64,000 bases of DNA, from contig NZ_CP066203.1 of NCBI RefSeq assembly GCF_017310545.1, forward strand, positions 310,001 to 374,000. The letters run 5' to 3'. The translations under genes were made by a program, and so were the position numbers. Every line of letters starts with the position of its first letter. Position 1 is the first letter of the stretch. Source of the stretch: Methylacidimicrobium sp. B4 (GTDB lineage: Bacteria > Verrucomicrobiota > Verrucomicrobiia > Methylacidiphilales > Methylacidiphilaceae). Under the pieces are notes generated by a model. It was given only the letters and a program-made list of their open reading frames with translations, ran no database searches and was not told the DNA's origin. This document shows positions 20,755 through 64,000 of this stretch, piece by piece.

Positions 20755-20756
20755 CC

Positions 20757-22176: not shown

Positions 22177-22184
22177 CCTGCTTC
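22177..22184. repeat. 8-bp target duplication CCTGCTTC (right)
   Basis: Partner of 20757-20764, immediately outside the right inverted repeat of the complete ISL3 element. Confidence 0.9.
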
Positions 22185-22865: not shown

Positions 22866-22902
22866 TTAGACTCGACGGTTAGATACCAATCTCATCTCTT
22901 TC

Positions 22903-23577: not shown

Positions 23578-23614
23578 TTAGACTCGACGGTTAGATACAA
23601 ATCTCATCTATTTC

Positions 23615-24265: not shown

Positions 24266-24326
24266 GGAGTGCAGCGCCGGTGTTAGTAGGCTGAAACCCA
24301 GAAGCAGGTAGCGCAGCCCCTGCTTC

Positions 24327-25034: not shown

Positions 25035-25044
25035 CCTCTGCTTT

Positions 25045-25719
25045 TCATTCCCACTCCGCAGGAACGTATCTTCTCATTGCATTTTCCTGAAATCTCTTCC
25101 ACTGCTCAGGGGGAAGAGGTGGAACATAGTCCTTTGGCAAAAGGCCGAGTTGCTTCTTGGCTTCGATCCTTTCTGGAAAATAAGCAGCGCATGCCCCAGT
25201 GATCCCGTCTTCGGGTGATGGAGGCGAGTCATAATAGGTCCTCCTGGTTAACCGCTTCACCTCTTCAATTCCCCACATTTGGATCTGCTTCTCGATCCAC
25301 TGCTTGGCCATCTCGGTTGCCTCCGGCAGGGTTAATCCGAGCTGCGTCCATGCGGGTTCCCGATCGCCCAAGGGCGCAGACGACCAAGGAACCGTAAGGG
25401 CACCCTTTTCAATGCGGACAAGAGCGCGCACCCTTCCAGTGCCTTGGTAGTTAGGATCGGACTCCCACATGCAGATATCGTACCAGCTCACCCCATCTTT
25501 GGCGACGATGTGGCCCATGATGACCTTCGGATTTCCCCAAAATAGCTGATCCCAAAAAGCCTGAGGAATATCGGGGGGCTTTGAGGAGTGGGAGAGCGAA
25601 CCCGCCAAGCAGACGGATCCGATCATGAGTAAAAGGAAAAGAGGAGCGGCGAGGACCGCGCGCCCAAGCCAAGAGGGGAACATGGGATCCAAGGAGTCCA
25701 GGGGAGTGTTCGTCTTCAT
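25045..25719 (-). CDS. Array protein 6, exported, unknown function
   Basis: This is the first array member in transcription order. The ATG at 25719 overlaps the TGA of the CHAP-like gene (ATGA), so translation is coupled to the pilus-like operon; this is why I reject the longer frame starting at 25821. The N-terminus is the most diverged (MKTNTPLDSLDPMFPSWLGR, then PLFLLLMIGSVCLAGS). The core and the LTVPWSSAPLGDREPAWTQ block match copy 2. The central block (SPPSPEDGITGACAAYFPE) is unique. Confidence 0.8.
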   Translation of the reverse strand: MKTNTPLDSLDPMFPSWLGRAVLAAPLFLLLMIGSVCLAGSLSHSSKPPDIPQAFWDQLFWGNPKVIMGHIVAKDGVSWYDICMWESDPNYQGTGRVRALVRIEKGALTVPWSSAPLGDREPAWTQLGLTLPEATEMAKQWIEKQIQMWGIEEVKRLTRRTYYDSPPSPEDGITGACAAYFPERIEAKKQLGLLPKDYVPPLPPEQWKRFQENAMRRYVPAEWE

Positions 25720-44381: not shown

Positions 44382-45149
44382 CAGACGATTTCCTCGACGA
44401 ACTTTCCGGCGTCCTTCGCGCGTAGCTCGCCAGAGATCAGCTTGGGCGGCAGGGTGTCGCGCAGGGTGGCGAAGGTACAGGACGGATGGATTGTCGCTGA
44501 CATACTGTCGACCAACGATCGGACAATCTCTCCGAATGCAGCGGCAACGGGCTCGGAAGGACGCGTGATGGCGTAGTGTGCCATATCTGCCCATCTCGTG
44601 CGCGGCATTTTCGTCCCGCTGGACCCTGCGTTCCTATATTCGACGAAATCGACACTCGAAACGTGGCCCAGCACGAACCCAAACCATTTTTGGCTTTTGG
44701 GTGCAATCACAAGTATGTCCGTGGAGCACACGCCATCCAGGGGCGCTACCCCCACTTTATGGAAGTAGGGGCGCAGCTTTCCAAACAGGATTTCACCTTT
44801 GTTGAATGCGAACTTATTGCTTTCCAATCCGTCCGCGAACCCCCAGTCGGATAAAGCGATGTGACGCCTTGGCATGTGCTCCAACGCGATATAGGCCGTG
44901 TCTGGCTCAATGCTCTCTGGTTGTACGCTCCGACGAAGATGTTCCGCCTCGTCACCAAGCGTGCAAACCCGCCACCCCTTCGGAATCAACCCCAACTCCA
45001 ACACCTCGAACTTGTCGGGAAATAGGGCTGCGGTAGCTGCACCCATGCCCTCGGGCGTGCGGCCTTCCATCTTGGAGCGCACGGGTTCAAAGTCCACAAA
45101 CCACGCCTTGAACAAGGCGCGGGCCATCGCCTCCAGCGTTTCGTTCTGC
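44381..45149 (-). pseudogene. hsdS: Type I restriction specificity subunit HsdS, 5' truncated
   Basis: The remaining 250 or so residues begin in the conserved central linker (NETLEAMARALFKAWFVDFEPV). They contain the second target-recognition domain (IPKGWRVCTLGDEAEHLRR; FNKGEILFGKLRPYF; GVCSTDILVIAP) and the closing linker (TLPPKLISGELRAKDA). The first recognition domain is cut off exactly where the ISL3 end starts at 45150. No hsdM or hsdR is in the window, so it cannot direct restriction here. An ATG at 45127 could still start a half-subunit; such halves sometimes dimerise. Confidence 0.85.
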
Positions 45150-46564
45150 GCCTCTTCGCTGCTTCAAGCGGGTAGAGCGGGAAGATCGAGCCGCAACTTT
45201 CCGGCTTTGAGGAACGCGGCAATTCTCAGGTAGCGGAAGCTCCGAAAGCCTCTGGCCATCCTTTTGGCCAGCTGGATCAGCCCGTTGATCGCTTCGATGG
45301 TTCCGTTGGTGATCCGGCTCTGGAGAAAGGCGATGATTCCCCCCAGATGCTCTTGGATGGTTTTCGAGAGTCTTCGGAAGGGAGCAAGCCGACTGCGATC
45401 CGCCCACCGGAACCACCAGCGGAGCTCTTGGGGATCCTCCTGGGAGAGGATCTCTTGGAGAGCCTCTCGCAACCCAATGGCTCTTCCCAATCGAGGATAG
45501 GCGGCGCAAAGGGAACTCCGCAGACCCTTCTGCTCCTCGCTTCGCGTCCATTCGTTACCTCGGAGCGCCCAGAGGCTTCCTTTCGGCAGCAACCCTTGAC
45601 GCCCGAACTCCTTGCGCACCTGGTCGACCGCGTCTCCCGCCATCGGCATGAGCGGGAAAGGATCGAAAATCCTCTCCGCCTTCGGAAAAACCTCCCGGGC
45701 TCCAGAGATGGAGGAGGGGCTCATCTCCATGCAGATCGCTTCGATCTGCCCCGGATCGGCATTCTGTTCCTTCCTCTCCTTGGCGAAGGCCTCCAGAGCC
45801 TCCTTTCCTCTCCCCTCGGCAAGGAAGAGCAGCTTCCGGCTCTCCGCATCGGTAACGACCGTCACGGAACGGTGGCCCCGCTTGCTCCTGGTCTCATCCA
45901 CCAGGATCTTCTTGACCCCGCTCCAGTCCTCGCGTCGGTAGGCCTTTTCCACGGAATGCCCCAAGACCCGCCAGAGCCGGGTATCTTGCTCCTTGAGCAT
46001 CTCCGCCATCGCGGAAACCGACATCTCCCGGGAAAGCATCCAAATGACCGCCTCCATCATGAGAGTAAACCCGCTCCCCGCCCTGGCCCAAGGAACCTCC
46101 ACCAGCCGAACTCCCTGCTCCGGACAGTTGATCCGAGGAACCCGAGCGATCCACTCGGTCCGGTACTGCTCGAAGTGCATCTGCCTCCACCGCTTCTCCA
46201 CCGTGTCGTGTACGGGGGAAGCTCTTCGACATTCCGGAGAGGTGAACCGATGACCTTGCTCCAAACCCGAGCCAGATCTTCAGAGTGTGCTCCTTCGCGG
46301 AGAGCTCACTCCGGCTCACCTTCCCTTCCGAACCCAGTGGCAGCGCCGCAGCAAAAAGCTTGTTCGCGTCCATCCCGCCAGCATTAAGCAAGCAGCCCGG
46401 TCTGGCCATCCGCCGTCAAGGAGGATCGACGAAATCGAAGTCTCCTTGACGGCTTCCTCTCTCCCCAAAAATCCGTCGAAGACGGAGGGCAAGAACCCCG
46501 CTTCTTGCCATCCCTTAACGGAAAATCCGCTCCCCCCCTTACCCACTCAATTCAGCGAGGAGCC
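45150..46564 (-). mobile_element. ISL3 copy, right arm of composite transposon, defective
   Basis: It has the same length (1,415 bp) and ends as the left arm, in opposite orientation. Its left (inner) flank is inside hsdS; its right (outer) flank is TGACATCT. Confidence 0.9.
45164..46373 (-). pseudogene. ISL3 transposase, frameshifted (right arm)
   Basis: The N-terminus starts at ATG 46373 (MDANKLFAAALPLG) but shifts frame at LKIWLGFGARS. The remaining 366 residues (45164-46264) are open. It carries the same Asp-to-Glu change in ICMEMSPSS as the left arm. It lacks the left arm's extra stop, so it is closer to their common defective ancestor. Confidence 0.9.
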
Positions 46565-49005: not shown

Positions 49006-50676
49006 TCAGGCGCCGTTGCTCCCCGCGGGGACCTGCGCATTGATCTGGTTCATCAGCATGCCCGCGCTCCCGCCTCCATCGAGGATCGTCCGCTGGATCA
49101 TCCCTTGGCGGATATGCTCGTGGTCCTGGAGGAGCCCATACCGGGTCTGCCGATGGTGCTCGATCTGCTGCTGGAGGGTGTTCAGGTGCTGGTTCTTCGC
49201 GTTGATCTCGCTGTTCACCAGCATGCGGAACTGGGCGACCTGGGCGATCGGAAGATTGGGGTTGCCCTGGAAGCTTGCGGCGAGCTGCTGCGCGGCCGAC
49301 TGGAGGCCTTGCAAGCTTGTGATCACGCCCTGGGTGTGAGTGTAGAGCTGCCGGTTGATCTGCTCGCTCGCATAGTTCTGCTGAATCCGCTGGAGGTTGG
49401 CCGCCATCTGGTTGAGGAAGATCTGCATCGCGTTCGCCCCCATCCCGGTGACGAGGGTGCCCGAGGCGCCCATGAGGCTTGAGGCATTGAACTGGACGGG
49501 GATGAGCTCCAGGGTGGCTCGCGATGGGGAGCAGGCCTGGCTCTGGCTGACGGTCACGGGCTCTCCGGGCACGGTGTGGAGCAGAGCCGCTTGAATCGCC
49601 GCGGCGTTCTGCTGGGCATAGGGGTCCAGGGGATTGACGATCGGCGTTGCCCCTCCACTGCCCTGGGATTGGTTCACCTGGTAGCGCTGGACCGCTCCCC
49701 AAGCCCCGTTGGTGTAGATGTCCGGTGCGACCGGGCTCAACCCGTAGGCGGCATTCGGGTTGTTCCCGGTGACCGGATGGTAGAGGCCGCCCGTGGCTCC
49801 CGATCCGTTCGGGAGGCCCGCCTGGGTGGTCCAGAATGCCGCCTGCTGGGGACCGGTGCCCTGCCAGATGGCCGTCTGGTAGGCGGCGTCGGTGGGATTG
49901 GCCGAACGAACGAAGGCTCCGTTGCCGATCATCATGGCGCCACCGAGGACCGAGGGGAGGATGGCCGAGAGCGTTGCCGGGAGAGCCGCGCCGTTCAAGC
50001 CGCCGGCCGCTCCCATGGAGGCGAGCGAGCCCAGGCTGCCGAGGGTCCCCATGCCCATCATCGCCAGAGGATTGGAGCCCCCCAGGAACATCGGCGCAAA
50101 GGCGGTCGCCATCATCGCGAGGTTCCCCAGGGTGCCGCCGAGGAAGGGGCTTCCGCTCCCCATGAACTGGCTGCCGAGCGACTGTGCCGCAGCGTATTGG
50201 GGGGCAGAGAGCCCGGTGAGGAGGAAAGGCGGCATCCAGGACATGCCCAGCGGCATGCCCGAGAGCCCCATCAGGTTGCCAACATAGCCGAGGCCGGAAC
50301 CGACCAGGCCGGTGCCGTTGAAGGCCATCCCGAGGGGGCTGGTGGTTCCCGCCCCAAGCAGGTTTGCCGTTGCCAGGGGGCTCTGGTTGATCTGCCCCTC
50401 GTAGGCGGCCCATTGACCGAGGTTTGCCAGTTGGGAGGCACTCTGCTTGGTCCCCTGCTCCATCTGCTGGAGAAGGAGGGTCTGCTGCTGGATCTGCTGG
50501 TTGGTCTGCTGAATGCAGGAGATCTGCTGCTCGATCTGCTGCATCAGCGCCCCCGCCTCGGCCGTGAATGAGGTGACCGTAACCGGATATTGCGCAGCGG
50601 CAGGGGGAGTTCGGGAGAGGGAGAGGCCCAGGACCGCCGTCAGGAGGACGAGGGAATAGGAAAGGGTTCGATTCAT
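49006..50676 (-). CDS. TrbJ/VirB5-like secreted protein, Gln-rich
   Basis: This 556-residue protein starts at ATG 50676; the longer frame to 50808 lacks a sensible N-terminus. The signal peptide (YSLVLLTAVLGLSLSRTPPAAAQ) is followed by a Gln-rich coiled coil (IEQQISCIQQTNQQIQQQTLLLQQME). A long Gly/Ala/Met-rich middle comes next, then a C-terminal helical part (NQMAANLQRIQQNYASEQINRQL) typical of TrbJ/VirB5 minor pilus proteins. It is about twice the usual length because of the central low-complexity region (about residues 100-300). The element box lies 11 nt upstream, and no Shine-Dalgarno site is visible. Confidence 0.7.
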   Translation of the reverse strand: MNRTLSYSLVLLTAVLGLSLSRTPPAAAQYPVTVTSFTAEAGALMQQIEQQISCIQQTNQQIQQQTLLLQQMEQGTKQSASQLANLGQWAAYEGQINQSPLATANLLGAGTTSPLGMAFNGTGLVGSGLGYVGNLMGLSGMPLGMSWMPPFLLTGLSAPQYAAAQSLGSQFMGSGSPFLGGTLGNLAMMATAFAPMFLGGSNPLAMMGMGTLGSLGSLASMGAAGGLNGAALPATLSAILPSVLGGAMMIGNGAFVRSANPTDAAYQTAIWQGTGPQQAAFWTTQAGLPNGSGATGGLYHPVTGNNPNAAYGLSPVAPDIYTNGAWGAVQRYQVNQSQGSGGATPIVNPLDPYAQQNAAAIQAALLHTVPGEPVTVSQSQACSPSRATLELIPVQFNASSLMGASGTLVTGMGANAMQIFLNQMAANLQRIQQNYASEQINRQLYTHTQGVITSLQGLQSAAQQLAASFQGNPNLPIAQVAQFRMLVNSEINAKNQHLNTLQQQIEHHRQTRYGLLQDHEHIRQGMIQRTILDGGGSAGMLMNQINAQVPAGSNGA

Positions 50677-50684
50677 GGTTTGAG

Positions 50685-50699
50685 TAATAGGACACCGGC
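50685..50699 (-). promoter_or_regulatory. GCCGGTGTCCTATTA box before the TrbJ-like gene
   Basis: The minus-strand sequence GCCGGTGTCCTATTA ends 9 nt before ATG 50676. It is nearly identical to the box before the VirB8-like gene (CCCGGTGTCCTATTA). Confidence 0.5.
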
Positions 50700-50716
50700 A
50701 GCGACCGGGGCGCGCC

Positions 50717-51331
50717 TTAAGACCCGTTCGCGGGTGATCGAGCGACCAGTTCCTGAAGCTGGAGGAGGCGGGTCCGTCGATTGACAAACTCCTCCAGGTG
50801 CTGGTCAAAGCGGACGAAGGGGAGGGGACGGGCTCTCCAGCGACGGTGGAGCGCCTGGCAGGCGGAGGCCAGCTCCCGGCAGACGGGGATCAGCATCCGA
50901 CCCTGCGGATGGTCCGAAAACCGAGTGAGAAAGCCGAGCGACTGCTCGCCGACGGCCGGATCCTCGATCGGCATCGAGAGGAGCACGGAGGCGGGATCTT
51001 CCGCCGAGTCGATGACAAACCATTCGGTCCAGGCGTCGGGCGACTCGTCGAGCATTCTTGCCCAGATGGGATACTCGCCCTCGAGCAGCTCGCGAAAGAG
51101 CTGCCGATCGATCCGGATTGCCGGAAAGGCGGGCTCCGATCGGCTCGTTCGGGGCAGGTCCTTTCCGAGGCGTTGGGTGAAGTAGGCTTCGAAGAGAAGC
51201 GCCCGCTGGCGCAGCGAGATGGATGGCAAGGCGCCATCGAAGAGATCGAGGGCAAGATCCTCGGGATAGACGACCCGTTCCGGCCGCTCCGCGACTTCGC
51301 CCTTCTCTCCACTCTCCGGCTCACGCGCCAC
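50717..51331 (-). CDS. Hypothetical protein in the transfer operon
   Basis: This 204-residue soluble protein starts at GTG 51331, 15 nt after the preceding stop. It has an acidic N-terminus (REPESGEKGEVAERPERVVYPEDLALDLFDG) and a Trp/Asp-rich centre (WARMLDESPDAWTEWFVIDSAEDPA). No family is recognised. It is last in the apparent operon headed by the coupling protein gene. Confidence 0.65.
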   Translation of the reverse strand: MAREPESGEKGEVAERPERVVYPEDLALDLFDGALPSISLRQRALLFEAYFTQRLGKDLPRTSRSEPAFPAIRIDRQLFRELLEGEYPIWARMLDESPDAWTEWFVIDSAEDPASVLLSMPIEDPAVGEQSLGFLTRFSDHPQGRMLIPVCRELASACQALHRRWRARPLPFVRFDQHLEEFVNRRTRLLQLQELVARSPANGS

Positions 51332-52125: not shown

Positions 52126-54282
52126 CTACCGCGGAATCAGATGGAGGAGAAATTGCACCCGCTTGAAGCTTCGTCGGCCGAAACGAGGATGGAGCTTCAC
52201 GATCGCCTCCCCATCCTTGAGCTTGGGAAAGACGTAGGGTGGATAGAGGAGGTCCTTCCGGAAGTTGATTTGAAAATCCTGAGCGGCGATCGGCTTGTTG
52301 AGATCGAAGAGAAGCTCCTGCGTTCCGCGGGAGAGGTAGCCCTCGCTCCGATCGACCTCTCCAAAGAGCCGGGAGGCGAATTCGTTGGTCGCCGTGTGCG
52401 GATTTCGGAGAAAGATCATGGTGGCCGTATTGGTGAGGATGGCGTCGATCTCGGGCTTCGGGAGCCGGCCCTCCAGGACCGCCAAGGACTGGAAGGCGAC
52501 GATGCAGGCGCAGCGGTATTCGCGGGCCTTGTCGAAGAAGCCGCGCTCCCCCGTCCAGTCGCCCGTGGTGGCGACCGTGGCAAACTCGTCGCAAAGATAG
52601 ACGACCGGCCGCTCCTGGTTGATCGGCGCTCCCCCGTCCTTTTTCAAGGTCTTGCGCGCCAGCACGGTCCGAAAGAAGTCGAGCTTGAGCAAGAGGCTCG
52701 CCACCTTGGCCGCGTTCCGCCAGCGGGCGAAGTTCATGTCGAGCACGACGATCTTCCCCTGGTCGATGACCTCGCGGAAGGAGAGCTTCCCGCCAGGACG
52801 GACCATCTGGCTGAACGGAGGTTGCGTCATGAGCGAGGTGAGGGTGGAGACGGTCATGCCGATCGACCCGGAGGTGCGCTCGTTGGCGATGTTGAGGTAT
52901 TCTCCTCGAAAGTAGAGGTAGATCTCGTCGGAATTGGGTTCCTTCCCCTCGTACCGCAGGAGGCGCTCGTACTGGTCGAGCCACCGCTGGAGCGGCCCAT
53001 GCTCGGGTTCCGGGATTGCCGTGCGGTGGAGCTGCGAGAGCAGGGCCATCCCCTGGTCGGCTTCGCTCAGGAAGTCGAGAAAGAGCTCGCGAAGCTCCCC
53101 GCCCCGCTCCTCGAGCAATCCGCAGCGGGCCATGAGCCCGCGGAATCGATTGGCGACCTCCTCGATGACGCCCGCCGTCCGTCCATAGAGGTTCTCGTCG
53201 AGCCGGTGGGAGTAGAGCATCGACCGCAGGGCGCGAACCTGCGGGAGGTAGCCGAGCAGGGAGTAGGCAGCGGGGGCGCCACGCAGCTTCGGCTGGAGGT
53301 CTCCCTCAATCCATTTGACCGCGCTTTCGAGGCCGTTCCGTTCGAGGAGCCACGCCTCCCTTTCATCATCGCCGGGAGGAACGGTGCCCTCCCGGTACGA
53401 TTGAAGGCTCTTCTTGATCCGGATCAGCAGGAGGGGAATCTCGGGCTCGACCCGGTTGGTGATCCGCGAGAGCTTCTCAAAGCTGGCGAAGACCTTGTCG
53501 CGCAGCTCCTTGATCACGCTCTCCGCCTGCGTGATGAGCCCCTGGTTTGCCGGCTGCCCCCGGTCCATCACCAGCAGGTTCAAGAGGGAAAAGGACATGG
53601 GCGGGGGCCCCGGGTCGACCAGCCCCTTGTTGCTCGCGTCGACGAGCGCGCGGTGGAGCTGGAAGAGGGAGGTAAAGAGCTTGCGGCCCGCCGCATCCCA
53701 AAACGGGTCTTGCGCGGTCTTCCCATCGTCGACCGCCTGCTTGAGCGTGATCATCAGGTCGCCCAGCTCCGAGGGGAGGGCATTCGGATCGTTGAAAGGG
53801 TCGATCGCTAGATCGTGGTCGGGCCCGAAGAGGAGGAGATCGCCGGTTCGGTCGTACCTCCCCGCCAGCCAGCGGAGGATCTCGGTGAGCTCGCACTTTC
53901 CGTCCAGGAAGAAGCCCCCCATCTTGCACTCCTGGAGCGCTTCGGGGTTGCGCAGGTCGGTCGCCCGAAAGAGGCTCTCCAGGATCTGGGTGAGAACGTA
54001 GCGCGTCTTTCCCGCTCCAGAACCCCCGACGATGCTCACATGGGAGTAGAGGTCCCGGATCGTCAGCGGCTTTCCCCACTCGTCGAGCAGCTCTTGGGGT
54101 TCGGTCGCCACCCGAAACCGGAGGGCTCCCCATTCCCCTTCCGCAATCGGGGCGCGTTTCCAGTAGCCGAGTCCGCCGGTCCGAGCCGCTGCCGTCGCCT
54201 TCGGCGCCTTCGGATCGACGGAGAGCGGGGCGAGGAGCCGCTTGCCAAGAGCCTGGCCCAGAGTCTGCAATTTTTCGAGCAT
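52126..54282 (-). CDS. Type IV coupling protein, VirD4/TraG/TraD-like ATPase
   Basis: This 718-residue protein has Walker A GGSGAGKT near 89 (VSIVGGSGAGKTRYVLTQIL) and Walker B in VVYLCDEFATVATTGD. The further conserved segment CIVAFQSLAVLEGRLP (the Q-S motif of VirD4) is followed by LTNTATMIFLRNPHTATNEF. This is the nucleic-acid-pumping ATPase that brings DNA or proteins to the secretion channel. Unlike most VirD4 proteins there is no clear N-terminal pair of membrane helices, so it may dock through a separate membrane protein, perhaps one of the small genes downstream. The element box is upstream and no Shine-Dalgarno site is visible. Confidence 0.88.
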   Translation of the reverse strand: MLEKLQTLGQALGKRLLAPLSVDPKAPKATAAARTGGLGYWKRAPIAEGEWGALRFRVATEPQELLDEWGKPLTIRDLYSHVSIVGGSGAGKTRYVLTQILESLFRATDLRNPEALQECKMGGFFLDGKCELTEILRWLAGRYDRTGDLLLFGPDHDLAIDPFNDPNALPSELGDLMITLKQAVDDGKTAQDPFWDAAGRKLFTSLFQLHRALVDASNKGLVDPGPPPMSFSLLNLLVMDRGQPANQGLITQAESVIKELRDKVFASFEKLSRITNRVEPEIPLLLIRIKKSLQSYREGTVPPGDDEREAWLLERNGLESAVKWIEGDLQPKLRGAPAAYSLLGYLPQVRALRSMLYSHRLDENLYGRTAGVIEEVANRFRGLMARCGLLEERGGELRELFLDFLSEADQGMALLSQLHRTAIPEPEHGPLQRWLDQYERLLRYEGKEPNSDEIYLYFRGEYLNIANERTSGSIGMTVSTLTSLMTQPPFSQMVRPGGKLSFREVIDQGKIVVLDMNFARWRNAAKVASLLLKLDFFRTVLARKTLKKDGGAPINQERPVVYLCDEFATVATTGDWTGERGFFDKAREYRCACIVAFQSLAVLEGRLPKPEIDAILTNTATMIFLRNPHTATNEFASRLFGEVDRSEGYLSRGTQELLFDLNKPIAAQDFQINFRKDLLYPPYVFPKLKDGEAIVKLHPRFGRRSFKRVQFLLHLIPR

Positions 54283-55161: not shown

Positions 55162-55809
55162 TCACTCCCGTGAGGGGAAAGTTTCCTTCTCCGCGTGCGC
55201 GGGGGGACAGAGCTCGCCAAAGCCTCGCTTGGTCCGCAGCTCCTTTTCAAGGAAGGCTTGGGCTTGGGCCAGGTACTTCGAGGCGCGCTGCCGGCTGATG
55301 CCCATGTAGTAGCCAACGCTCGTCAGGCTCAAGGCGGGATCCGGCTCATCGGCGCGCCGCTGGAGCGTGCCGAGGCCACAGATTCCCCGGCAGTAGAAGG
55401 GACAGCTCCTCTCCTCCAGCCGGAATCCTTTCCGGGAGCAGCGCAAGATGGCCAGGCAGAGAACCACTTCGTCCAGCCCCGATGTTGCGCGCTTCCTCTG
55501 GGCCGGGAAAACGGCGAGGAGATCCTGCCGGTAGGTCTCCCGCAATTCCCCCGGCCACCTCTCGAGGGGGGACCAGAGATGGAGCCAGCCCGGCCGGACC
55601 CGGCTCACATCGATCGCCCCCGCTTGGATCTCGCTCTCGAGCGTAAGGAGGGAAGGGGGGATGGGAGGAAGGGAAGAGCTCTCCCGCAAGCTTCTCAGAA
55701 AGCGGAGCTCTCGAGCGAGCTCCTCCGGGCTCGCCGCATGGCCGTTGCGGGCGCCCTCGCGGCCTTCGATCGAAGAGAGCGCGCCTTCCGGGGCTGAGCG
55801 CGTCGCCAT
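55162..55809 (-). CDS. Putative HTH regulator with cysteine cluster
   Basis: This 215-residue protein has a C-terminal helix-turn-helix resembling sigma region 4 or LuxR types (SLTSVGYYMGISRQRASKYLAQAQAF). Just before it lies a cysteine-rich motif (ERSCPFYCRGICGLG) that could bind a metal or Fe-S cluster. The N-terminal half is helical. It is divergent from 55827 with only 17 bp between start codons, and the palindromic box CCTATGGATTAGG fills that gap, so it may regulate itself and its neighbour. The regulator role is inferred. Confidence 0.6.
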   Translation of the reverse strand: MATRSAPEGALSSIEGREGARNGHAASPEELARELRFLRSLRESSSLPPIPPSLLTLESEIQAGAIDVSRVRPGWLHLWSPLERWPGELRETYRQDLLAVFPAQRKRATSGLDEVVLCLAILRCSRKGFRLEERSCPFYCRGICGLGTLQRRADEPDPALSLTSVGYYMGISRQRASKYLAQAQAFLEKELRTKRGFGELCPPAHAEKETFPSRE

Positions 55810-55811
55810 AA

Positions 55812-55824
55812 CCTATGGATTAGG
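55812..55824 (+). promoter_or_regulatory. CCTATGGATTAGG palindromic box between divergent genes
   Basis: CCTA-N5-TAGG occupies most of the 17-bp gap between ATG 55809 (minus) and ATG 55827 (plus). On the plus strand CCTA is 11 nt before the start, again without a Shine-Dalgarno site. Confidence 0.5.
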
Positions 55825-55826
55825 TC

Positions 55827-56528
55827 ATGGACACGTTGAACGCAAAGAATGGCGACCAAGGACCGACGAAGTATAGCCCGCTCTTTCCGATCCCGAACGA
55901 GATGGGCAACCTGGCCTTTTTCAGCCTGATGGACGACCCGGCGCTGCGCACAGCGGTCGACTTGCGGTTTGCACCCGAAAAGGCCCACCACCTTGCACTC
56001 TGGTTGACCAGCTATCCGGCCGTTGTCGCCTACTTCGGCCAATCACGAACGGTCGAACGCCTCTGCGAGGAGCACATCGGCCTCTATGGAAACCTCTCGA
56101 CAAGCTGGAAGGAGTCGCTCAAGGCGAGCGCGCTCATCCATCATGCGATCTTCTCGGCGGCAAGCGACTACCTCTTCCGCTACACGACCTGGTGTGCCGA
56201 TAGCTACCCGGGAGACCTCGCTCTTCCGGTCTCGGTCATGATCGGATGGATGCTGCACGAAGGCGCCACCTTCTTCTTGAAAGACTATGTCCCCCTGTTC
56301 AGTCATGCGAGCAGCGCTCTCATCGACGATCTGCCGGCGGTGGTAGAGGCGGCTCAAGTCGTGCAGGAGCATTTGTCTCCTCTGGCAGACGGCTTTTCCG
56401 AAGCCGAGAACCCCTACCGGCACATTGCCGATGTCCATTCGAGCCTCCAGCTCAACCAAGAGGCAGAAGAGTGGTTCCTCCGCAGTGGCCTCTCTTCTCC
56501 GTCCCCCGGCCAGTCTCGCCTCGGATAA
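55827..56528 (+). CDS. Hypothetical protein, 233 residues
   Basis: The protein starts at ATG 55827 and is helical and aromatic-rich (LALWLTSYPAVVAYFGQ; IHHAIFSAASDYLFRYTTWCADSYPG). A hydrophobic block (LPVSVMIGWMLHEGATFFLK) may be a buried helix. There is no signal peptide. It is divergent from the putative regulator. No family is recognised. Confidence 0.65.
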   Translation: MDTLNAKNGDQGPTKYSPLFPIPNEMGNLAFFSLMDDPALRTAVDLRFAPEKAHHLALWLTSYPAVVAYFGQSRTVERLCEEHIGLYGNLSTSWKESLKASALIHHAIFSAASDYLFRYTTWCADSYPGDLALPVSVMIGWMLHEGATFFLKDYVPLFSHASSALIDDLPAVVEAAQVVQEHLSPLADGFSEAENPYRHIADVHSSLQLNQEAEEWFLRSGLSSPSPGQSRLG

Positions 56529-56765: not shown

Positions 56766-57425
56766 TTATCGCGTCCGATCGTGCTCTTTCTGGCGCTTCT
56801 GCTCTTGGGAGCGGTCGGGACTCCCGACGAAAGGCTGCGGGACCAGATCCTTGGTTTCCAGAGGCGGCGGCGCATTCTCCGGCCCTGCGGGGCTCTTTGC
56901 TGGTGCCTTCGACGCACTTTCCTGGACTTTCGCCCAAGCCTTCTCCTGGCCCGCCCGCTGCACCTCGGCTTCCGGCCCGCTGGGCCGATAGTGGGTGGTG
57001 AAGTTGTCGAGCAGATGCTGCTTGAGCTGGGAAAGACCCCGGCCCGCAGCCTCTTGCAGATCCTGCTCCACCGTCTGTGCTGCCGCCCCAAGGGAGCGCA
57101 ACCCCTCCGCCGCCTTTTCCGTTACCCCCTGCGCCACCGCCCTCAGTTGAGCGATCGGACCTGGATGCTTGAGCGGAGGCAGAACGCACAGGGGTTTCGG
57201 CATCGGGCTGGATTCAGGAGCTGGTGTGGGGCCGGGCTGATCGTGGGTCGGAGGCCGATCCTGCGGTTTCATCGAGACGCGCGCCTGCGCCAGAGCCGCG
57301 CCCAAGGCTTGCCCCGCGTAGTCGGAACCATCGCTCGGAGTGGAGAGCGGAGCCACCTCCGGAGGCCGGACCTGCTGTCCTTCGCCTCCTTTGCCTGCTT
57401 CGACTGGACGAACATATTCTCCCAT
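56766..57425 (-). CDS. Candidate translocated protein with ENAPPPL tail, copy 2
   Basis: This 219-residue protein starts at ATG 57425 after GGGAG. It is largely disordered (Pro/Gln/Ser-rich) with one helical stretch (GLRSLGAAAQTVEQDLQEAAGRGLSQLKQHLLDNF). The C-terminus reads GPENAPPPLETKDLVPQP and ends in a basic tail (EQKRQKEHDRTR). The same C-terminal motif occurs in the next protein upstream. Shared tails on otherwise different, unstructured proteins beside type IV secretion genes suggest a secretion signal; this is inference. Confidence 0.6.
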   Translation of the reverse strand: MGEYVRPVEAGKGGEGQQVRPPEVAPLSTPSDGSDYAGQALGAALAQARVSMKPQDRPPTHDQPGPTPAPESSPMPKPLCVLPPLKHPGPIAQLRAVAQGVTEKAAEGLRSLGAAAQTVEQDLQEAAGRGLSQLKQHLLDNFTTHYRPSGPEAEVQRAGQEKAWAKVQESASKAPAKSPAGPENAPPPLETKDLVPQPFVGSPDRSQEQKRQKEHDRTR

Positions 57426-57491
57426 ATCGTGATCTTCTCCCTTCTTCTTGCGGCTGCCCGGATGCGCCTCGCATCGGGGGAGCCATTGGAT

Positions 57492-58190
57492 TTACCCTCC
57501 CTGGCCTCCTCGCTCCTCTCTGGAGCACTCGCGCACCCGCTCTTTTCCGGGGCCGGCACCTCCAGGGACCGGAAGAGGGACGAGGTCGTCGGTTCGCAAA
57601 GGCGGCGGCGCGTTCTCCGGAGGCGTGCGGCTGCCAATGGCTCGGCCCTGATCGAAGGTGAGCTGTCCCGGAGCGGCCAGGCTCTCCTCCGGCTCTGCGG
57701 AGCTCTTCTCCAGCGCCTTCGACCCTGCTGAGCGGGGGTCATTCGCGTCCTGAGCTTGAGAGCCAGCTTGAGTGTCAAGGTCCATCCTTACGAAGGCTGG
57801 GCCCCGGACCCCGGGCTTCGACTCCTGCGAGGGGGAGGGAGCTGCGCCAACGGCGGAACCCGGCTCGCCAATGGCTAGAGCGGGAGGAGCGGAAGCGCGC
57901 TCCGGCTGCGCAGGAGACAAGGCTTGATAATCCTTCTCGGTCATTTCCTCCTCCGGGGAGTGAACCCGACCCTGGTCCGACGCTCGGACGAACACTGGGA
58001 TGACTCGCCAATGTCTCCCCTGCTCATCCGTTCTCACCCGGACCGGGTTCCCATCCGGATCGATCATTTGCTCCAGCGGCGAACCGCCTTCTCGATCCGG
58101 AGCAGGAAGGCCTTCGACCTGAGCCTGGCTGGCGGCTGGATCTGGTGACGGCGGCTCATCTCCCCCTTCTTCCGAAACCAATAGTTGCAT
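57492..58190 (-). CDS. Candidate translocated protein with ENAPPPL tail, copy 1
   Basis: This 232-residue protein starts at ATG 58190 with AAGGAG upstream; a longer frame to 58235 is less likely. It is acidic and Pro-rich with a short ordered region (DPDGNPVRVRTDEQGRHWRV). The tail PPENAPPPLRTDDLVPLP aligns with the tail of the 56766 protein, followed by a basic end (KERVRECSREERGGQGG). No other similarity to known families is seen. Confidence 0.6.
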   Translation of the reverse strand: MQLLVSEEGGDEPPSPDPAASQAQVEGLPAPDREGGSPLEQMIDPDGNPVRVRTDEQGRHWRVIPVFVRASDQGRVHSPEEEMTEKDYQALSPAQPERASAPPALAIGEPGSAVGAAPSPSQESKPGVRGPAFVRMDLDTQAGSQAQDANDPRSAGSKALEKSSAEPEESLAAPGQLTFDQGRAIGSRTPPENAPPPLRTDDLVPLPVPGGAGPGKERVRECSREERGGQGG

Positions 58191-58250: not shown

Positions 58251-59198
58251 TTATCGGTCCCGGCCCCCGCGCCCGGGGGGACGGGGTCCATAATTCGGGC
58301 TCGCGGGACCGGCGGCCGGTCCCTCCGGCTGAATCCCCGGGGGAATCGCCGACCCGCGCTCGCTCCCTTTGAGATCAGGGATGGGGATACTCGCCCGGGA
58401 TGCTTCGGGGGAGCGCCCGACCGAGGAGGCCTCCCGACCGGGGGAGGTGGCGAGCTTTCCCATCGCCTCGAGGGCACCATTCCCCAGCCGCTCGCCGAGC
58501 GCCGATCCGACGACCCAGCCCAACCATTGACCGACAGGCCTTCCTCCGGGAAGCCAGCCCATCGCCCATCCTCCCGCTTCCTTTCCCGCCTGGGCGGCGG
58601 CCATGGTCGCCGCCGTCTTGACGAAGGCACGGGCAAACGCGCCGCTGGCGTGAACCATATCCCCCTGAGCGAGCAGCTGGGTCCCCCGGATGATGTCCGG
58701 GCCGGCTTCTTCCATCGCAAGAGCCGCCCCGGCACTGGGGCCCGAGTAGCGAGTCACCGTCCGGAGAAGCCGCAAGGGAAAGGGATCGGAAGGCTTCCGC
58801 TTTTCCGGGTCTTGGATCGCGGCCGCGGCCATCGAGACCACCCCCAGAGCCGCTTCGCGCAATCCCGCGATGGGACCAGCGGAAGCGGGAGAGCGGGACG
58901 GCTCTGGCGACGGGCTTTGCCGGGAAGCGGCCTCGGCCGCGAGCTCCTGCGGCGTCTTCGCCTGACTCGGGTGCGAGAAGGACTCCCAAATCTTGTAGGC
59001 GCCAAAAGCGCCCACAATCCAGGGGAGGGATTTTCGAACCATGCTCCAGAGGTTCTTCGCGGCTCGAGCGAGATCTCCGCCAGAAAGGTGGCTCTCGCTT
59101 GCCAGGTCGACATTTTCGCTGTGCAAGGGAGAGAGCATCGGCCCCGCGCTCGCTCCTGCGCCGCTCGCGTTTCCCAAATTCACTTGGACGGGTTGCAT
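58251..59198 (-). CDS. Gly/Ala-rich protein with glycine-zipper region, unknown
   Basis: This 315-residue protein starts at ATG 59198. It has a hydrophobic patch (SLPWIVGAFGAYKIWESF), a Pro/Ser linker, and a long Ala/Gly region. That region contains a zipper-like run (GGWAMGWLPGGRPVGQWLGW, then VVGSALGERLG), as in membrane-inserting toxins and scaffold proteins. The C-terminus is Pro/Gly-rich and basic (PRPPGRGGRDR). It heads the group of three candidate substrates and has an element box 25 nt upstream. Pore former, substrate or structural protein are all possible. Confidence 0.6.
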   Translation of the reverse strand: MQPVQVNLGNASGAGASAGPMLSPLHSENVDLASESHLSGGDLARAAKNLWSMVRKSLPWIVGAFGAYKIWESFSHPSQAKTPQELAAEAASRQSPSPEPSRSPASAGPIAGLREAALGVVSMAAAAIQDPEKRKPSDPFPLRLLRTVTRYSGPSAGAALAMEEAGPDIIRGTQLLAQGDMVHASGAFARAFVKTAATMAAAQAGKEAGGWAMGWLPGGRPVGQWLGWVVGSALGERLGNGALEAMGKLATSPGREASSVGRSPEASRASIPIPDLKGSERGSAIPPGIQPEGPAAGPASPNYGPRPPGRGGRDR

Positions 59199-59282: not shown

Positions 59283-61370
59283 CTAACGAGTGTTGGAAAA
59301 GGAGCGGGAAGAGAGGAGCAGCATCGCTTCCTCCTTGGCAATCATCCCGGTCATGAAGAGCTCCGCCGCCTGCCCGGCAAGGGACTTGAAGCCGCGTGCC
59401 TCGTTGTGGCGGCGGATCTCGTTCGGGGCCGCTCCGGCTTCGAACATCGCCAGGATCTCTCCATCGACGGGCAGAAGCTCCATCACGGGCATTCGGCCCG
59501 CCATCCCCGTTCCTCGGCAGGCGGGGCAGCCCGGAGCTTCGGCGACGACCGGCTCCGGGATGGCAACATCGGGAAAGGGGGCGATCTCCTCCGGCTCCGC
59601 CGGGCGTGTTCTCTTGCAAAAGGGGCAGAGCTTACTGACCAGCCGTTGGGCGATCGAAAGCCGAAGCGCATAGCCGATGACGAGCCGATCGATCCCAAAG
59701 CTCTGCACCATCCGCTCCACCACGCCGACCGCATCGTTCGCGTGGGTCGAGGTGAAGACCTGATGGCCGGTCAGAGCGGCGTCGATGGCGATTTGGGCGC
59801 TCTCCCGGTCACGGACTTCCCCCACCATGAGCACATCCGGGTCCTGCCGGACGACTCCCCGGAGCGCGGAGGCGAAGGTGATCCCGGCCTTCTCCCTCAC
59901 CTCGATCTGTACGGCGTCCGGGAAATGCTTCTCGACCGGATCCTCGATGCTCATGATCTTGCGCCGGGCTGTGCTGACCGCGCGCAGCATCGCATAGAGC
60001 GTGGTCGTCTTTCCGCTCCCGGTGGGTCCCGTGGAGACGAAGAGCCCCTCCCCCTGCTTGAGGAACCAGAGGAGCGTCTGAAGCTCCACGGGCGCGAGCC
60101 GCAGGTCGGCCAAGTTCGGGATCCGGGAGGAGAGAAGCCGCACGGCCGTCACCTCCGCCATTCCCTTGGCAACCACAATGCTGTACCGCTGGTCATAACG
60201 GATTCCGCGGTGGAGATGGGTTCCGCTGCCATCCTGGAAGATCCCCTTGGCATCGGCGGCCATGTTCCCGTAGAGCTTCATCCGATCGAGCATGGCCGCA
60301 TACTGGGAGCGAGTCAGCGGCGCCTGCTCGTAGTAGTCTCCGTCGACCCGGAATCGGACGCGAACATGGCTCTCCTTTGGCTCCAATGAGATATCACTCG
60401 CCCCCATATCGAGCGCCGAGCTGAGGATCGCATCGAAGAGGACAATTCCGGAGCGGTTGAGGTTGAGCACCTCCGTCGCGGGCCAGCTCCGCACATGGAG
60501 GGGATCGCCGGAGAGAATTCCCGAGCTCTCCTTCCCTTTCTCGACCTTGGCCTGGAGCTGCGCAAAGTGCCTTGGGCCGCAGGCAACCGGATGGATCTTG
60601 GCCCGGAGGGTCTCGATCAGGCGGTCGGTCAAGGACGAGGAGAAGACCTCGGGGGTGAGCACCCAGGCGTGGGTTTGTGAGCGGCGCCACAGGAGCGCAT
60701 GGTCGCATCCCGGGATCGGGCTCGCCTGGGCAGCCGCCCCGGCGGGGACGACCGGATGCGGCTCTCGGCCGAAGAGGATTTCTTCCAAGAGCGCGCCAAG
60801 CGATGGATAGAGGGCGGGGTCGAGGCCGAGCCGCTTGGCCCACGCCTCGCGCTCCTCCTCTTGCCAGTCGGGAAAGCCCGCCGTCTCCTGCTCGATCCGG
60901 ACCGCCAATGCGCCATAGTCGCCGGGAGCGAGAAGAAAGAAGGCTCGCCGCTTGTTGGGAAGCGCGCCGGCGGCAAAGGATTCCAGCTCCTCGAGCCGAA
61001 AGGGGTTGAGGATTCCGATGCACCAGACCGGCTCCTCCCAGAGAAGGATGCCATGCAGCTCTCGCTGCAGCCGTCTGCCGACGGCCGAAAAAGCGACCTC
61101 GGGCAACGGGTGCCCCGGATCGGCGGGATAGAGAGGGGGCCAGCCGGGCTGCCCGGCACAGGCCTCCGCCCACCGCTCCCACGGAAGAGCGCGACTGTGA
61201 CGCACCAGCGCCTCTTCCAAATCGAAGGAGGCCCTTTCCGCGTGCCAGGCCTTGAGGACATCCACCAGAACGAGTCGACTCCGGATGAGAAAGGACTCCA
61301 AGCGGGCAGCCGCTGGCGCTGCATTTCGAGAAGGAGAGGAGAGGGGCCGAGAAGTCGGGGCAAGCGTCAA
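59283..61370 (-). CDS. GspE/PilB-type secretion or pilus assembly ATPase
   Basis: The chosen start is TTG 61370, which has GGAAG 6 nt upstream and follows the element box; ATG 61412 is an alternative. The protein has about 695 residues. The N-terminal 320 residues are element-specific. The ATPase follows: ASDISLEPKESHVRVRFRVDG, Walker A GPTGSGKT, Asp box MSIEDPVEK, Walker B VLMVGEVRDRESA and His box THANDAVG. The four-cysteine zinc site (CPFCKRTRP; CPACRGTG) is that of GspE/PilB. It would power assembly of the pilus-like machine encoded at 26-30 kb, or act in place of VirB11. Confidence 0.9.
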   Translation of the reverse strand: MTLAPTSRPLSSPSRNAAPAAARLESFLIRSRLVLVDVLKAWHAERASFDLEEALVRHSRALPWERWAEACAGQPGWPPLYPADPGHPLPEVAFSAVGRRLQRELHGILLWEEPVWCIGILNPFRLEELESFAAGALPNKRRAFFLLAPGDYGALAVRIEQETAGFPDWQEEEREAWAKRLGLDPALYPSLGALLEEILFGREPHPVVPAGAAAQASPIPGCDHALLWRRSQTHAWVLTPEVFSSSLTDRLIETLRAKIHPVACGPRHFAQLQAKVEKGKESSGILSGDPLHVRSWPATEVLNLNRSGIVLFDAILSSALDMGASDISLEPKESHVRVRFRVDGDYYEQAPLTRSQYAAMLDRMKLYGNMAADAKGIFQDGSGTHLHRGIRYDQRYSIVVAKGMAEVTAVRLLSSRIPNLADLRLAPVELQTLLWFLKQGEGLFVSTGPTGSGKTTTLYAMLRAVSTARRKIMSIEDPVEKHFPDAVQIEVREKAGITFASALRGVVRQDPDVLMVGEVRDRESAQIAIDAALTGHQVFTSTHANDAVGVVERMVQSFGIDRLVIGYALRLSIAQRLVSKLCPFCKRTRPAEPEEIAPFPDVAIPEPVVAEAPGCPACRGTGMAGRMPVMELLPVDGEILAMFEAGAAPNEIRRHNEARGFKSLAGQAAELFMTGMIAKEEAMLLLSSRSFSNTR

Positions 61371-61392
61371 GTGCGTCTTCCTTTTGTTCAGG

Positions 61393-61406
61393 CAATAGGA
61401 CTGCGG
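61393..61406 (-). promoter_or_regulatory. CCGCAGTCCTATTG box before the ATPase gene
   Basis: The minus-strand sequence CCGCAGTCCTATTG has its CCTA 25 nt before TTG 61370. It lies within the coding frame if the ATG at 61412 is used, which argues for the TTG start. Confidence 0.4.
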
Positions 61407-61511
61407 CGTCATGAGCGCGGACGATCGGCGGCGGCCACTCTGTGGCGCAGCGCAAGGAGAGGCGTGCAAAACCGATGGGAGCCCATGGCGGCCCCACTCC
61501 AAAGCGCCGGA

Positions 61512-61526
61512 CCCGGTGTCCTATTA
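61512..61526 (+). promoter_or_regulatory. CCCGGTGTCCTATTA box before the VirB8-like gene
   Basis: Plus-strand CCCGGTGTCCTATTA has its CCTA 18 nt before ATG 61542, with AGGGGAG between. It is the best match to the consensus and heads the VirB8-VirB9-VirB10 operon. Confidence 0.5.
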
Positions 61527-61541
61527 GGGGAGCAGCCATCC

Positions 61542-62318
61542 ATGAATTTGAGAGCCACGACCGCACACGAAGTTCGTCCGCCGGAGCGCGAACGGGATGT
61601 CCACTATCCGGCAAGGAAGCTGCGGCTTCCCGCCTTCCTCCGCCCTGTCTGGGAATGGAAGGAAGATCTCGCCATCGTCAACACCTGGCTCCTCATCATC
61701 AGCAGCCTCGAAGGAGTCGCCCTGATCGTTCTCGGCTTCGCGCTCTGGGCCAAGGTGCACGAGCCCACTCGGGTGATTGTCGATCTCCCGGGCTACGTAG
61801 TTTGGCCGAAGGTCGAAGTGCTCGAGTTGCGGGAAGAGCTCCTCCGCACCTTTCTCAATCAAGTCGGAAAGGTGCTCTACGAGGTGAGTCCCGGCTCATA
61901 CGAGATTCAGCAGGTCGTCGACAAGATCTCTCCCGGGATCGCCCAGGTCTTCCGCGACTACTACGGACCGATCGCGACCGGCCGCAACGCGGAGCGGATC
62001 GTCTGGAACCTCCGGGAGATCCGACGCTACGAGGACCCGAAGCGTCCCGGATATCTGACGGTGGCGGGCAAGTGCGACCGCGCCCGATACCGGATCGAAA
62101 ACGGCGTCCACGATATCGTCAGCGAGCAGATCGTGATCCTCTTCTATTTGAGCCAAGTTCACAACACTCCGACGAACCCGCTCGGGTTGCGGCTCGAAGG
62201 GGTGGAGGAGATCAAGGGAGCGGAAGCCGATAAGGCCTGGGCGATGACGGCACCCTTCATCAATCCCGACCTGATCAAGCAGGAGCCGCTCCCCGGAGCC
62301 CGGGAAAAGAAGCCATGA
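61542..62318 (+). CDS. VirB8/TraE-like type IV secretion protein
   Basis: This 258-residue protein starts at ATG 61542. A cytoplasmic N-terminus is followed by one membrane helix (LLIISSLEGVALIVLGFALWA) and a periplasmic alpha/beta domain of about 190 residues (LREELLRTFLNQVGKVLYEVSPGSYE; KCDRARYRIENGVHDIVSEQIVI). Topology, size and order before VirB9- and VirB10-like genes identify it as the VirB8/TraE assembly factor. Its stop overlaps the next start (ATGA), so the genes are coupled. Confidence 0.75.
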   Translation: MNLRATTAHEVRPPERERDVHYPARKLRLPAFLRPVWEWKEDLAIVNTWLLIISSLEGVALIVLGFALWAKVHEPTRVIVDLPGYVVWPKVEVLELREELLRTFLNQVGKVLYEVSPGSYEIQQVVDKISPGIAQVFRDYYGPIATGRNAERIVWNLREIRRYEDPKRPGYLTVAGKCDRARYRIENGVHDIVSEQIVILFYLSQVHNTPTNPLGLRLEGVEEIKGAEADKAWAMTAPFINPDLIKQEPLPGAREKKP

Positions 62319-63310
62319 ACGCTAAGCGCGCCCTTTCGCTCGCCTTTCTCTTTCTTTCCCTTCCTTGGGGAAGCACCCTCTCCGCCGATCCCCTCCCAGC
62401 GGCACTTCCGTCGGGCACGATCCCGCAGCCGAACCTGCCCTCGGGTGTCAACGAGGCGCTGGCGAACCAGAACGGGCAGAACAAGCAGGTCGTCGAGGAA
62501 GAGGCTCCTCCTGTTCTGATCGACGGGAGACGGGCGGACGAGCTGAGTGAGGACGAGCTGCTTGGCTTTCTTCAGGGGAAGGTCCGAACGATCCAGCAAG
62601 GGGACGGGCAGGTGGAGATGCTGCGAATCGCTCCCGGATACCCGCTCGTCCTCGAATTCTCCGATCCGGTTTCCGGCTGGGAACTCGGTGATGGCAAGCT
62701 CGTTTCGGTCAAGCGCGCCTACCAATCCCTGATCCTTCGGGCCACCGAAGAGGGCGGGGACACCTCGCTCATCGTCTTTTTCGGCGGTGGGAAGACCAGA
62801 CCCTACCATGTCTTCGTCGAGCAGTCCTTCGCGAAGGCGCAAACCATCGTTCGAGTCTCTCCCTTTGCCAAGCGGGATGGATTGCTGCAAAAGGCCTCGT
62901 GGAGCGGTGGCGCACAGCCCGGGCAATACGCGGATGTCGCCGAGGTCGCGCGAGTCGTGGAAAATTACGAGCTCCTCCTGCGCGAGGGCTCGATCACCCC
63001 GCGCGATATCCAGCGGCTCATCCTCTTTCACCGTTCCCAACTGACCGGCTTCGACTACTACTACCTCTACCGGTTCGCGTCCGGGCCCTTGGCCATCACC
63101 TTCTCCTGGCGGAATCCCTTTCCCTATCCGGTGCGCCTCGATGAATCGACGCTTCGGGTCGCGATCGGGCAGAGCCGGTTCATCCCCGACTTCGTCTCCC
63201 TGAACAAGGACAGGCTTCCGCCGAAGGCGGCCACCTCCGGATTTCTCATCCTCTTCGATCCGCCCTTTGCGCCCGAGCAGCCCTTTACCTTGGTCTGGAA
63301 ACCGAAATGA
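62315..63310 (+). CDS. VirB9/TraK/TrbG-like periplasmic protein
   Basis: This 331-residue protein has a signal peptide (LSLAFLFLSLPWGSTLSA), a Pro/Asn-rich linker and a beta-rich body. The body shows MLRIAPGYPLVLEFSDPVSGWELGD, KRAYQSLILRATEEGGDTSLIVFF and late beta strands (FLILFDPPFAPEQPFTLVWKPK). The first beta domain resembles the VirB9/TraK N-domain that binds the VirB10 ring. The place between VirB8 and VirB10 genes supports it. It forms part of the outer-membrane core complex. Confidence 0.75.
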   Translation: MNAKRALSLAFLFLSLPWGSTLSADPLPAALPSGTIPQPNLPSGVNEALANQNGQNKQVVEEEAPPVLIDGRRADELSEDELLGFLQGKVRTIQQGDGQVEMLRIAPGYPLVLEFSDPVSGWELGDGKLVSVKRAYQSLILRATEEGGDTSLIVFFGGGKTRPYHVFVEQSFAKAQTIVRVSPFAKRDGLLQKASWSGGAQPGQYADVAEVARVVENYELLLREGSITPRDIQRLILFHRSQLTGFDYYYLYRFASGPLAITFSWRNPFPYPVRLDESTLRVAIGQSRFIPDFVSLNKDRLPPKAATSGFLILFDPPFAPEQPFTLVWKPK

Positions 63311-63343: not shown

Positions 63344-64000
63344 ATGCACCGAATCCGACCTCTTCTGAGCAAAGCCCGCGACTGGTTCCGGCAGCATCGG
63401 GAGCTGAGCCTCTTTGGGGCGATCGGCCTCCTGGTCCTGCTCCTCTTGGTTGGTGCCGATTATGGCGTGAACGCGCTCGCCCATCAACTGGTCGAGCATG
63501 CGCGGAGCGTCTATCGGCAACGGCAAGTGCCTACGCGCTTGGCGACGATTCCACAGAGCCGAGTCCTTGCCCGCAAGGAGCAGCCTCCCGCCCGCAAGGA
63601 GCCGGTTCTCGTCGTGCAAAAGAACCCTGCGGGTCCGGCTCCGTCGGTTGTGCCCCTCGACGTGGCCAAGGCGCATGAAAAGCCGCCGGAGAGCCCAACC
63701 GCCCCGATTCAGATCAACCCGCCTCCCAAGGAAAAGGAGAGAAACTCCCTGGGGCCACTCGAAGGGGCCCCGCCCAATCGCCAAGCACCGGTCCCCACTG
63801 GGCTGGTCAACCAGCATGCCCTTGTCGACGGCTCCGGGGAGAGCACTCCTGTCTTCACCCGGGTGGCCAAGAAGCGCTACCTCTTCCGCAACCTGACGGA
63901 CTCGGCCGTGGAGACGAGCGCAGGGGGCAAGGGAGAGGAAGATGAGCGCTCGAAGATCAATCTCGATACCTTTGCCCCGCGCGGTGAGATCATCGAAGCG
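63344..64000 (+). CDS. VirB10/TraB/TrbI-like protein, cut by window end
   Basis: The ATG at 63344 has TAGGAGA upstream, and the frame is open to the window end (219 residues visible). A cytoplasmic N-terminus is followed by one membrane helix (LFGAIGLLVLLLLVGADYGV), a long Pro/Lys-rich periplasmic linker and the start of the barrel domain (NLDTFAPRGEIIEA). The linker and the PRG-type start of the C-terminal domain are typical of VirB10, which spans the cell envelope in type IV secretion. The rest lies beyond the window. Confidence 0.85.
   Translation, partial: MHRIRPLLSKARDWFRQHRELSLFGAIGLLVLLLLVGADYGVNALAHQLVEHARSVYRQRQVPTRLATIPQSRVLARKEQPPARKEPVLVVQKNPAGPAPSVVPLDVAKAHEKPPESPTAPIQINPPPKEKERNSLGPLEGAPPNRQAPVPTGLVNQHALVDGSGESTPVFTRVAKKRYLFRNLTDSAVETSAGGKGEEDERSKINLDTFAPRGEIIEA

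Follow-up and report, generated by a model that had tools for sequence, protein, structure and literature searches.

A common C-terminal tail at a chromosomal type IV secretion locus of Methylacidimicrobium: a putative signal for secreted toxins

The stretch of 64,000 nucleotides analysed here, referred to as the window, comprises bases 310001-374000 of the complete 2.37-Mb genome of Methylacidimicrobium sp. B4 (G000), and includes, within a chromosomal type IV secretion system (T4SS) locus, two adjacent genes whose products end in a common tail. This tail consists of a proline stretch, PPPLxTxx[LF], and then a short basic end resembling RQxxRxGR, and occurs on the two locus proteins and on toxin-like proteins. 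It is probably the C-terminal signal by which the surrounding T4SS recognises its substrates, a reading that is derived from sequence comparison within the genus Methylacidimicrobium, represented among others by G000, strain LP2A (G001), Methylacidimicrobium cyclopophantes 3B (G004) and a Candidatus Methylacidiphilaceae metagenome-assembled genome (G002), and with the sister genus Methylacidiphilum, including Methylacidiphilum sp. Yel (G009) and G012.

The tail genes and the surrounding locus

The two genes are the last of a minus-strand run that comprises a secretion ATPase gene (61502-59283), a gene for a third protein (59198-58251) and the tail genes themselves (58190-57492 and 57425-56766), with gaps of 84, 60 and 66 bp. 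The features in question, with protein lengths in amino acids (aa), are as follows.

57425 to 56766, minus strand: 219-aa tail protein (ATG at 57425, stop at 56766), present in five of six congeners and recognised in Methylacidiphilum by synteny and N-terminus
56769 to 56882, minus strand: C-terminal tail of the 219-aa protein, PENAPPPLETKDLVPQPFVGSPDRSQEQKRQKEHDRTR, conserved in tail alignments and examined by shuffle test
58190 to 57492, minus strand: 232-aa tail protein (ATG at 58190, stop at 57492), found only in G000 and LP2A
57495 to 57620, minus strand: C-terminal tail of the 232-aa protein, PENAPPPLRTDDLVPLPVPGGAGPGKERVRECSREERGGQGG, examined by shuffle test

Both start codons are preceded by a Shine-Dalgarno-like GGAG or GGGAG. 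The two tails align as PENAPPPLETKDLVPQPFVGSPDRSQEQKRQ and PENAPPPLRTDDLVPLPVPGGAGPGKERVRE, with 17 of 31 residues identical (BLASTP E 1e-6), and none of 2000 shuffles reached the score of the real pair, indicating that the common tail reported in a preliminary description of this DNA is real. The same description held the proteins to be otherwise dissimilar, which is correct, since 1716 of 2000 shuffles of the bodies scored as well as the real ones. A DNA pattern encoding ENAPPP occurs at just these two sites in the genome, the chance expectation in the window being 0.01. The proteins had also been described as disordered, which applies only in part: the AlphaFold2 model of the 219-aa protein places residues 90-145 in a long helix (block predicted local distance difference test score, pLDDT, 81-87) and 151-172 in a second, followed by a low-confidence Pro-rich linker, and ends in a short, basic helix (205-217).

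Orthologues of the 219-aa protein in the Methylacidimicrobium relatives retain an end of the form E(N/H/K)A..PL(E/D)(T/S), then E(Q/E)KRQ, and the tail is kept at the C-terminus across five species despite an overall identity of about 45%; G006 and G008 are relatives without the tail. Between the tails of the two window genes 11 codons differ, six of them synonymously. The LP2A copy of the 232-aa protein has an additional copy of the tail inside the protein.

The locus surrounding these genes is chromosomal, and its gene content and order are largely kept between the two genera. Its remaining features in the window are the following.

59283 to 61502, minus strand: GspE/PilB-type secretion ATPase (Pfam T2SSE), heading the gene run of the tail proteins
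52126 to 54282, minus strand: VirD4/TraD-like coupling protein, the proposed tail receptor (Pfam TraG-D_C, PF12696, T4SS-DNA_transf, PF02534, and TrwB_AAD_bind, PF10412, above cut-offs; also NCBIfam)
61524 to 62318, plus strand: 264-aa locus protein, conserved in both genera, whose N-terminus includes a membrane segment (start inferred from the LP2A orthologue; no Pfam match)
62315 to 63310, plus strand: conserved 331-aa locus protein, from cross-genome comparison
63344 to 64000, plus strand: 5' part of a TrbI/VirB10-like gene (Pfam PF03743, E 4.6e-16) that runs past the window (L037:3344-4636)
49006 to 50808, minus strand: conserved 600-aa locus protein (identity 96% in LP2A, 72% in G005, 35% in Methylacidiphilum)

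Beyond the window, a VirB4/TraC-like ATPase is encoded at L037:12829-15495 (NCBIfam TraC-F-type E 5e-44 and VirB4_CagE E 2e-32, both under the equivalog cut-offs; Pfam P-loop_TraG E 7e-26), such that the locus includes a VirB4-type ATPase, a VirB10/TrbI-type channel protein and a VirD4/TraD-type coupling protein. A two-gene block at 55162-56528 (215-aa, minus strand; 233-aa, plus strand) is oppositely oriented with respect to its neighbours in the Methylacidiphilum loci, which suggests a local inversion. Also in the window, a Schlafen-like protein (42972-44594, minus strand; SLFN_AlbA_2 and HATPase_c_4) is encoded near an ISL3-type transposase gene (45164-46264).

Toxin-like proteins that carry the tail

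A profile built from the eight tails at Methylacidimicrobium loci, with no toxin included, was run over whole genomes. The top matches outside the locus in G000 were at C1:1651200 (E 0.002) and C1:1324065 (E 0.0022). The first stops exactly at the stop codon of a 606-aa protein (...SPPPLSTEGLQKIEFTRTDPRVERSRQADRGGRA), and upstream of its gene lie genes for three related, immunity-like tandem proteins with signal-peptide-like segments. An orphan copy of the 606-aa toxin's N-terminus is fused to one of the tandem secreted proteins near the gene, and the signal-peptide-like N-termini of these partners suggest that the target would be in the envelope, accessible from outside. A relative in G005, with a broken frame, still ends in the tail (RVDRCRQAAREGR) and has a related secreted protein beside it. 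The top extra-locus match in G002 (E 0.025) closes a 552-aa protein (...MPPPLDTSGFTRWQPSVSQGRGMARSSRGWER). This protein has an HNH region (a sub-threshold match to Pfam HNH_2), its gene adjoins a double-SUKH immunity gene, and another contig carries a second copy. A shared T4SS signal predicts that the tail should be found on toxin-like proteins beside immunity-type genes, and the observed pattern thus supports the interpretation of the preliminary description, which had proposed a search of this kind: the motif was not found inside housekeeping proteins, the best extra-locus matches being toxin-like C-termini beside immunity-type genes.

Several other readings and matches were set aside. The reading of L097 and L100 as DNA repeats was dropped, L097 being the end of the 606-aa protein with its secreted tandem neighbours; the first extra-locus match in G002 (C219:9022) lies on the strand opposite a secretin-like gene; and the weak matches L092, L098, L103, L084, L166-L172, L192, L196 and L198 fall mid-protein, antisense or in unrelated genes.

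A joint alignment of the tails has four invariant residues (one P, one L and two R) and an almost invariant PPPLxT, and the last 10-18 residues of six tail representatives carry a net charge of +1 to +4, i.e. the end is positively charged. Of 4093 frames in the sampled loci, eight have RQxx[RE][EG]GR close to the stop, all of them relevant, and PP[PS]Lx[ST] gave 11 matches, of which 10 were relevant, while RGx[ED]R at the stop was found in seven of 1103 sampled open reading frames (ORFs), all encoding HNH toxins; since the loci were partly picked for tails or SUKH genes, these counts speak for specificity inside the sample as opposed to genome-wide rates.

Tail-only fragments also occur. The second G000 match (L165, G000:C1:1324062-1324166) is a 98-bp sequence, 98% identical to the 606-aa tail, just downstream of a transposase gene, and a second fragment is present in LP2A (L191, G001:C2:505207-505269). 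Because of this identity and the adjoining transposase gene, both look like remnants of lost effectors, to judge from the G000 copy. Bare fragments of this kind, together with the internal tail copy in LP2A, could feasibly mean that the tail has no function and is what remains of a partial gene duplication in a GC-rich, Pro/Arg-rich genome. Such an origin seems very unlikely, given that diverged species retain the tail as the end of the 219-aa protein, that more than half of the codons differing between the window tails are synonymous, and that the tail recurs on unrelated N-terminal domains.

The HNH toxins of the sister genus also speak for a recognition signal. Methylacidiphilum G012 encodes proteins of 599 and 590 aa. 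In each, an HNH region is accompanied by a Gly-rich helical region, and the C-terminal domain matches the resident locus protein with 90-91% identity over about 149 residues. The first is encoded within the T4SS locus, where cassettes of HNH fragments and SUKH genes separate it from the resident gene, and the second about 0.83 Mb away. G007 and G011 encode related HNH proteins with double-SUKH-like neighbours but other tails, one of the G007 toxins lying a few kilobases off the T4SS cluster. The HNH regions of the toxins of the two genera are homologous (hhalign E 2.7e-7), the Pfam HNH_2 matches being sub-threshold (E 9e-4 to 0.045) and the motif in the Methylacidiphilum proteins seen by eye. 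PDB sequence searches with the toxins returned nothing useful. The neighbours match Pfam SMI1_KNR4 (E 2e-10 to 4e-14), placing the toxin genes beside immunity genes. The HNH region occupies the N-terminal third and the tail the C-terminus, i.e. the toxin domain is not C-terminal. Orphan cassettes, in which HNH fragments of 165-185 aa precede SUKH genes, are present in G012 and G011. Modular recombination between toxins and C-terminal modules is thereby shown, at the level of sequence.

Since most toxin loci are distant from the T4SS, it might be supposed that the tail toxins are not delivered by this machine at all, having instead an intracellular role (mobile-element defence or addiction) or being released by lysis, with the tail serving, for example, to keep the toxin inactive. 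The ParB and sigma-like genes that are also present in the cluster are indeed reminiscent of a former mobile element. It is hard to give this idea much credence, however, as the G012 toxin array is within the T4SS locus and a G007 toxin is close to the cluster, the envelope target suggested by the partners of the 606-aa protein would be reached from outside, and no relaxase family was recognised among the scanned cluster ORFs, no genome-wide relaxase search having been made.

Two further sets of genes may be mentioned beside the toxins. Six related tandem secreted proteins with signal-peptide-like N-termini are encoded in the window next to a larger protein with an N-terminus of the same kind (20053-25821 and 25716-26840, both minus strand). 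Relatives of both lie inside the T4SS locus of G004 (L030 7329-11282) and beside that of G002 (L029 1-1821), and single copies of the array families follow the G000 T4SS cluster (L075). The array looks like another immunity-type array, with no Pfam match. The 25716-26840 family, including the L030 and L029 members, was left out of the effectors because of its N-terminal signal-peptide-like segment (not in L030) and its lack of a tail. A 482-aa coiled-coil-like protein (L075 6067-7515, minus strand; G000:C1 about 394067-395515) ends SVRRDRGGGRER, much like the RGxER ends seen in HNH toxins, and is therefore another candidate effector; it directly precedes an immunity-like secreted protein (L075 5002-5907).

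Extent and role of the proposed signal

The third protein (59198-58251) was also said in the preliminary description to have a basic tail.

58251 to 59198, minus strand: 315-aa protein whose core (about residues 140-250) is helical, rich in Gly and Ala, and akin to the middle domain of the HNH toxins

It does end in the basic PRPPGRGGRDR; the motif is absent, and the end is not kept in orthologues, so that this is not the same signal as the shared tail. The protein is conserved across this bacterial family, and among 288 genomes of the phylum its relatives were found nowhere else; G006 and G008 lack them. Its core resembles the middle domain of the toxins of Methylacidimicrobium (hhalign E 3.9e-5) and Methylacidiphilum (E 4.8e-4), with none of 200 column shuffles reaching the real score for either set, low complexity being a caveat on this likeness; with a profile from Methylacidimicrobium only, the comparison with the toxins was not significant (hhalign E 0.16). 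The AlphaFold2 model (mean pLDDT 47.5) was too uncertain for a fold search. If the likeness is right, two toxin modules, minus the nuclease, would be matched by locus proteins.

In Methylacidiphilum, a syntenic protein of 222-239 aa comes after the orthologue of the 315-aa protein and ends in (E/K)EAP(L/I)F..EGL.P, with a further end LEQKK..EK.R in four of five. Comparison of the N-terminal 25 columns of the 219-aa protein between the genera was supported (0 of 400 column shuffles). Orthology rests on this and on synteny, because the full-length HMM (hidden Markov model) and hhalign comparisons of the tail protein were not significant and the tail profile failed across the genera.

Several observations weigh against the tail as a general signal of this T4SS. 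In a semi-global test of the tail only, between 5 (45 columns) and 30 (36 columns) of 400 shuffles matched the similarity between the genera, and the Methylacidimicrobium tail profile did not find the Methylacidiphilum tails in genome-wide searches. The HNH toxins of G005, G007 and G011 have RGxER-type or similar ends without PPPL, and neither the 219-aa nor the 232-aa protein has a recognisable toxin domain or immunity gene. The translocation signal proposed in the preliminary description is consequently only partly supported: the conserved T4SS locus and the recovery of toxin-like C-termini by a toxin-free profile speak for it, and its support is partial because export is predicted from sequence, several toxins of the same family have other tails, the similarity of tails between the genera is weak and the end of the third protein differs.

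That the 219-aa protein is kept wherever the locus is seen, has no toxin domain and is encoded within the gene run of the machine would also fit an internal docking motif, the tail proteins of the locus being cytoplasmic T4SS adaptors or assembly factors that are never exported and the toxins binding the same partner. This arrangement is unlikely, as tail toxins are encoded far from the locus, beside immunity genes, as substrates would be, and in the Bartonella precedent the resident protein that shares its signal with the toxin is a substrate too (PMC5675462).

If the tail is a recognition signal, the VirD4/TraD-like coupling protein would bind it in the cytoplasm and feed the protein to the T4SS, which would deliver it to neighbouring bacteria. 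There the N-terminal HNH or other domain could attack its target, while the SUKH or secreted partner would shield the producer. The conserved locus proteins, with the helical domain at 58251-59198 and the tail at 56766-57425, may be resident substrates or carriers, and the HNH toxins would have related modules on one chain, joined by recombination C-terminal to the toxin domain. More tentatively, and with somewhat less than even confidence, it could be proposed that the acidophilic methanotrophs of the Verrucomicrobia have a T4SS of their own for killing bacteria, with a C-terminal signal that is bipartite and new. Its toxins would mirror classical polymorphic toxins, N-terminal pieces being swapped before a C-terminal delivery module that also exists stand-alone as 58251-59198 and 56766-57425, perhaps travelling ahead of or with the toxins.

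Comparison with known systems

Neither secretion nor toxins are mentioned in the genome-comparison paper or the review consulted. Should the proposal be true, methanotrophs of acidic geothermal habitats would gain a weapon system, and the spread of a T4SS signal from a resident substrate to new toxins would become a directly testable question.

The toxins share with the polymorphic toxins surveyed previously (PMC3482391) an HNH-type nuclease region, a SUKH (SMI1/KNR4) neighbour and orphan toxin pieces with immunity genes. In that survey it is C-terminal toxin domains that are swapped with standalone cassettes, whereas both the toxin and the orphan pieces are N-terminal here. Known T4SS effectors have the toxin at the N-terminus and the signal at the C-terminus (PMC6536674, PMC5675462), which is the order seen with the present tail. 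In Bartonella, VbhT and the Bep proteins have a BID domain and a positively charged tail (PMC5675462, PMC6509941), comparable to the N-terminal toxin, C-terminal helical domain and basic tail described above, and VbhT and the resident relaxase TraA have virtually identical C-terminal signals (PMC5675462), much as the G012 toxin and a resident protein of the T4SS locus have nearly identical C-termini. Unlike in Bartonella, the role of resident partner is not taken by a relaxase, the tail includes a Pro-rich PPPL stretch, and in place of FIC toxin-antitoxin pairs there are HNH/SUKH pairs, in Verrucomicrobia.

The X-Tfe/X-Tfi pairs of the Xanthomonadales (PMC6536674) are similar in that the T4SS is chromosomal and scattered effectors with a common C-terminal signal lie beside immunity genes, and small proteins that are hardly more than the signal itself are known there too. 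The machine components, on the other hand, are only distantly similar to those of the Xanthomonadales-like T4SS, and the tail differs from the XVIPCD, a domain of around 120 residues with a Gln-rich end, being about 40 residues long and rich in Pro and Arg. Because neither the XVIPCD nor the BID family was matched in Pfam (locus proteins to E 0.01, toxins to E 0.1; presence of the two models in the library unchecked), the tail system is likened to these systems as opposed to being assigned to either. A review of bactericidal T4SSs anticipates further systems with effector signals quite unlike the XVIPCD (PMC6536674), and the tail system would be a concrete candidate for one outside the Proteobacteria, with the machine, signal, toxins and immunity genes named.
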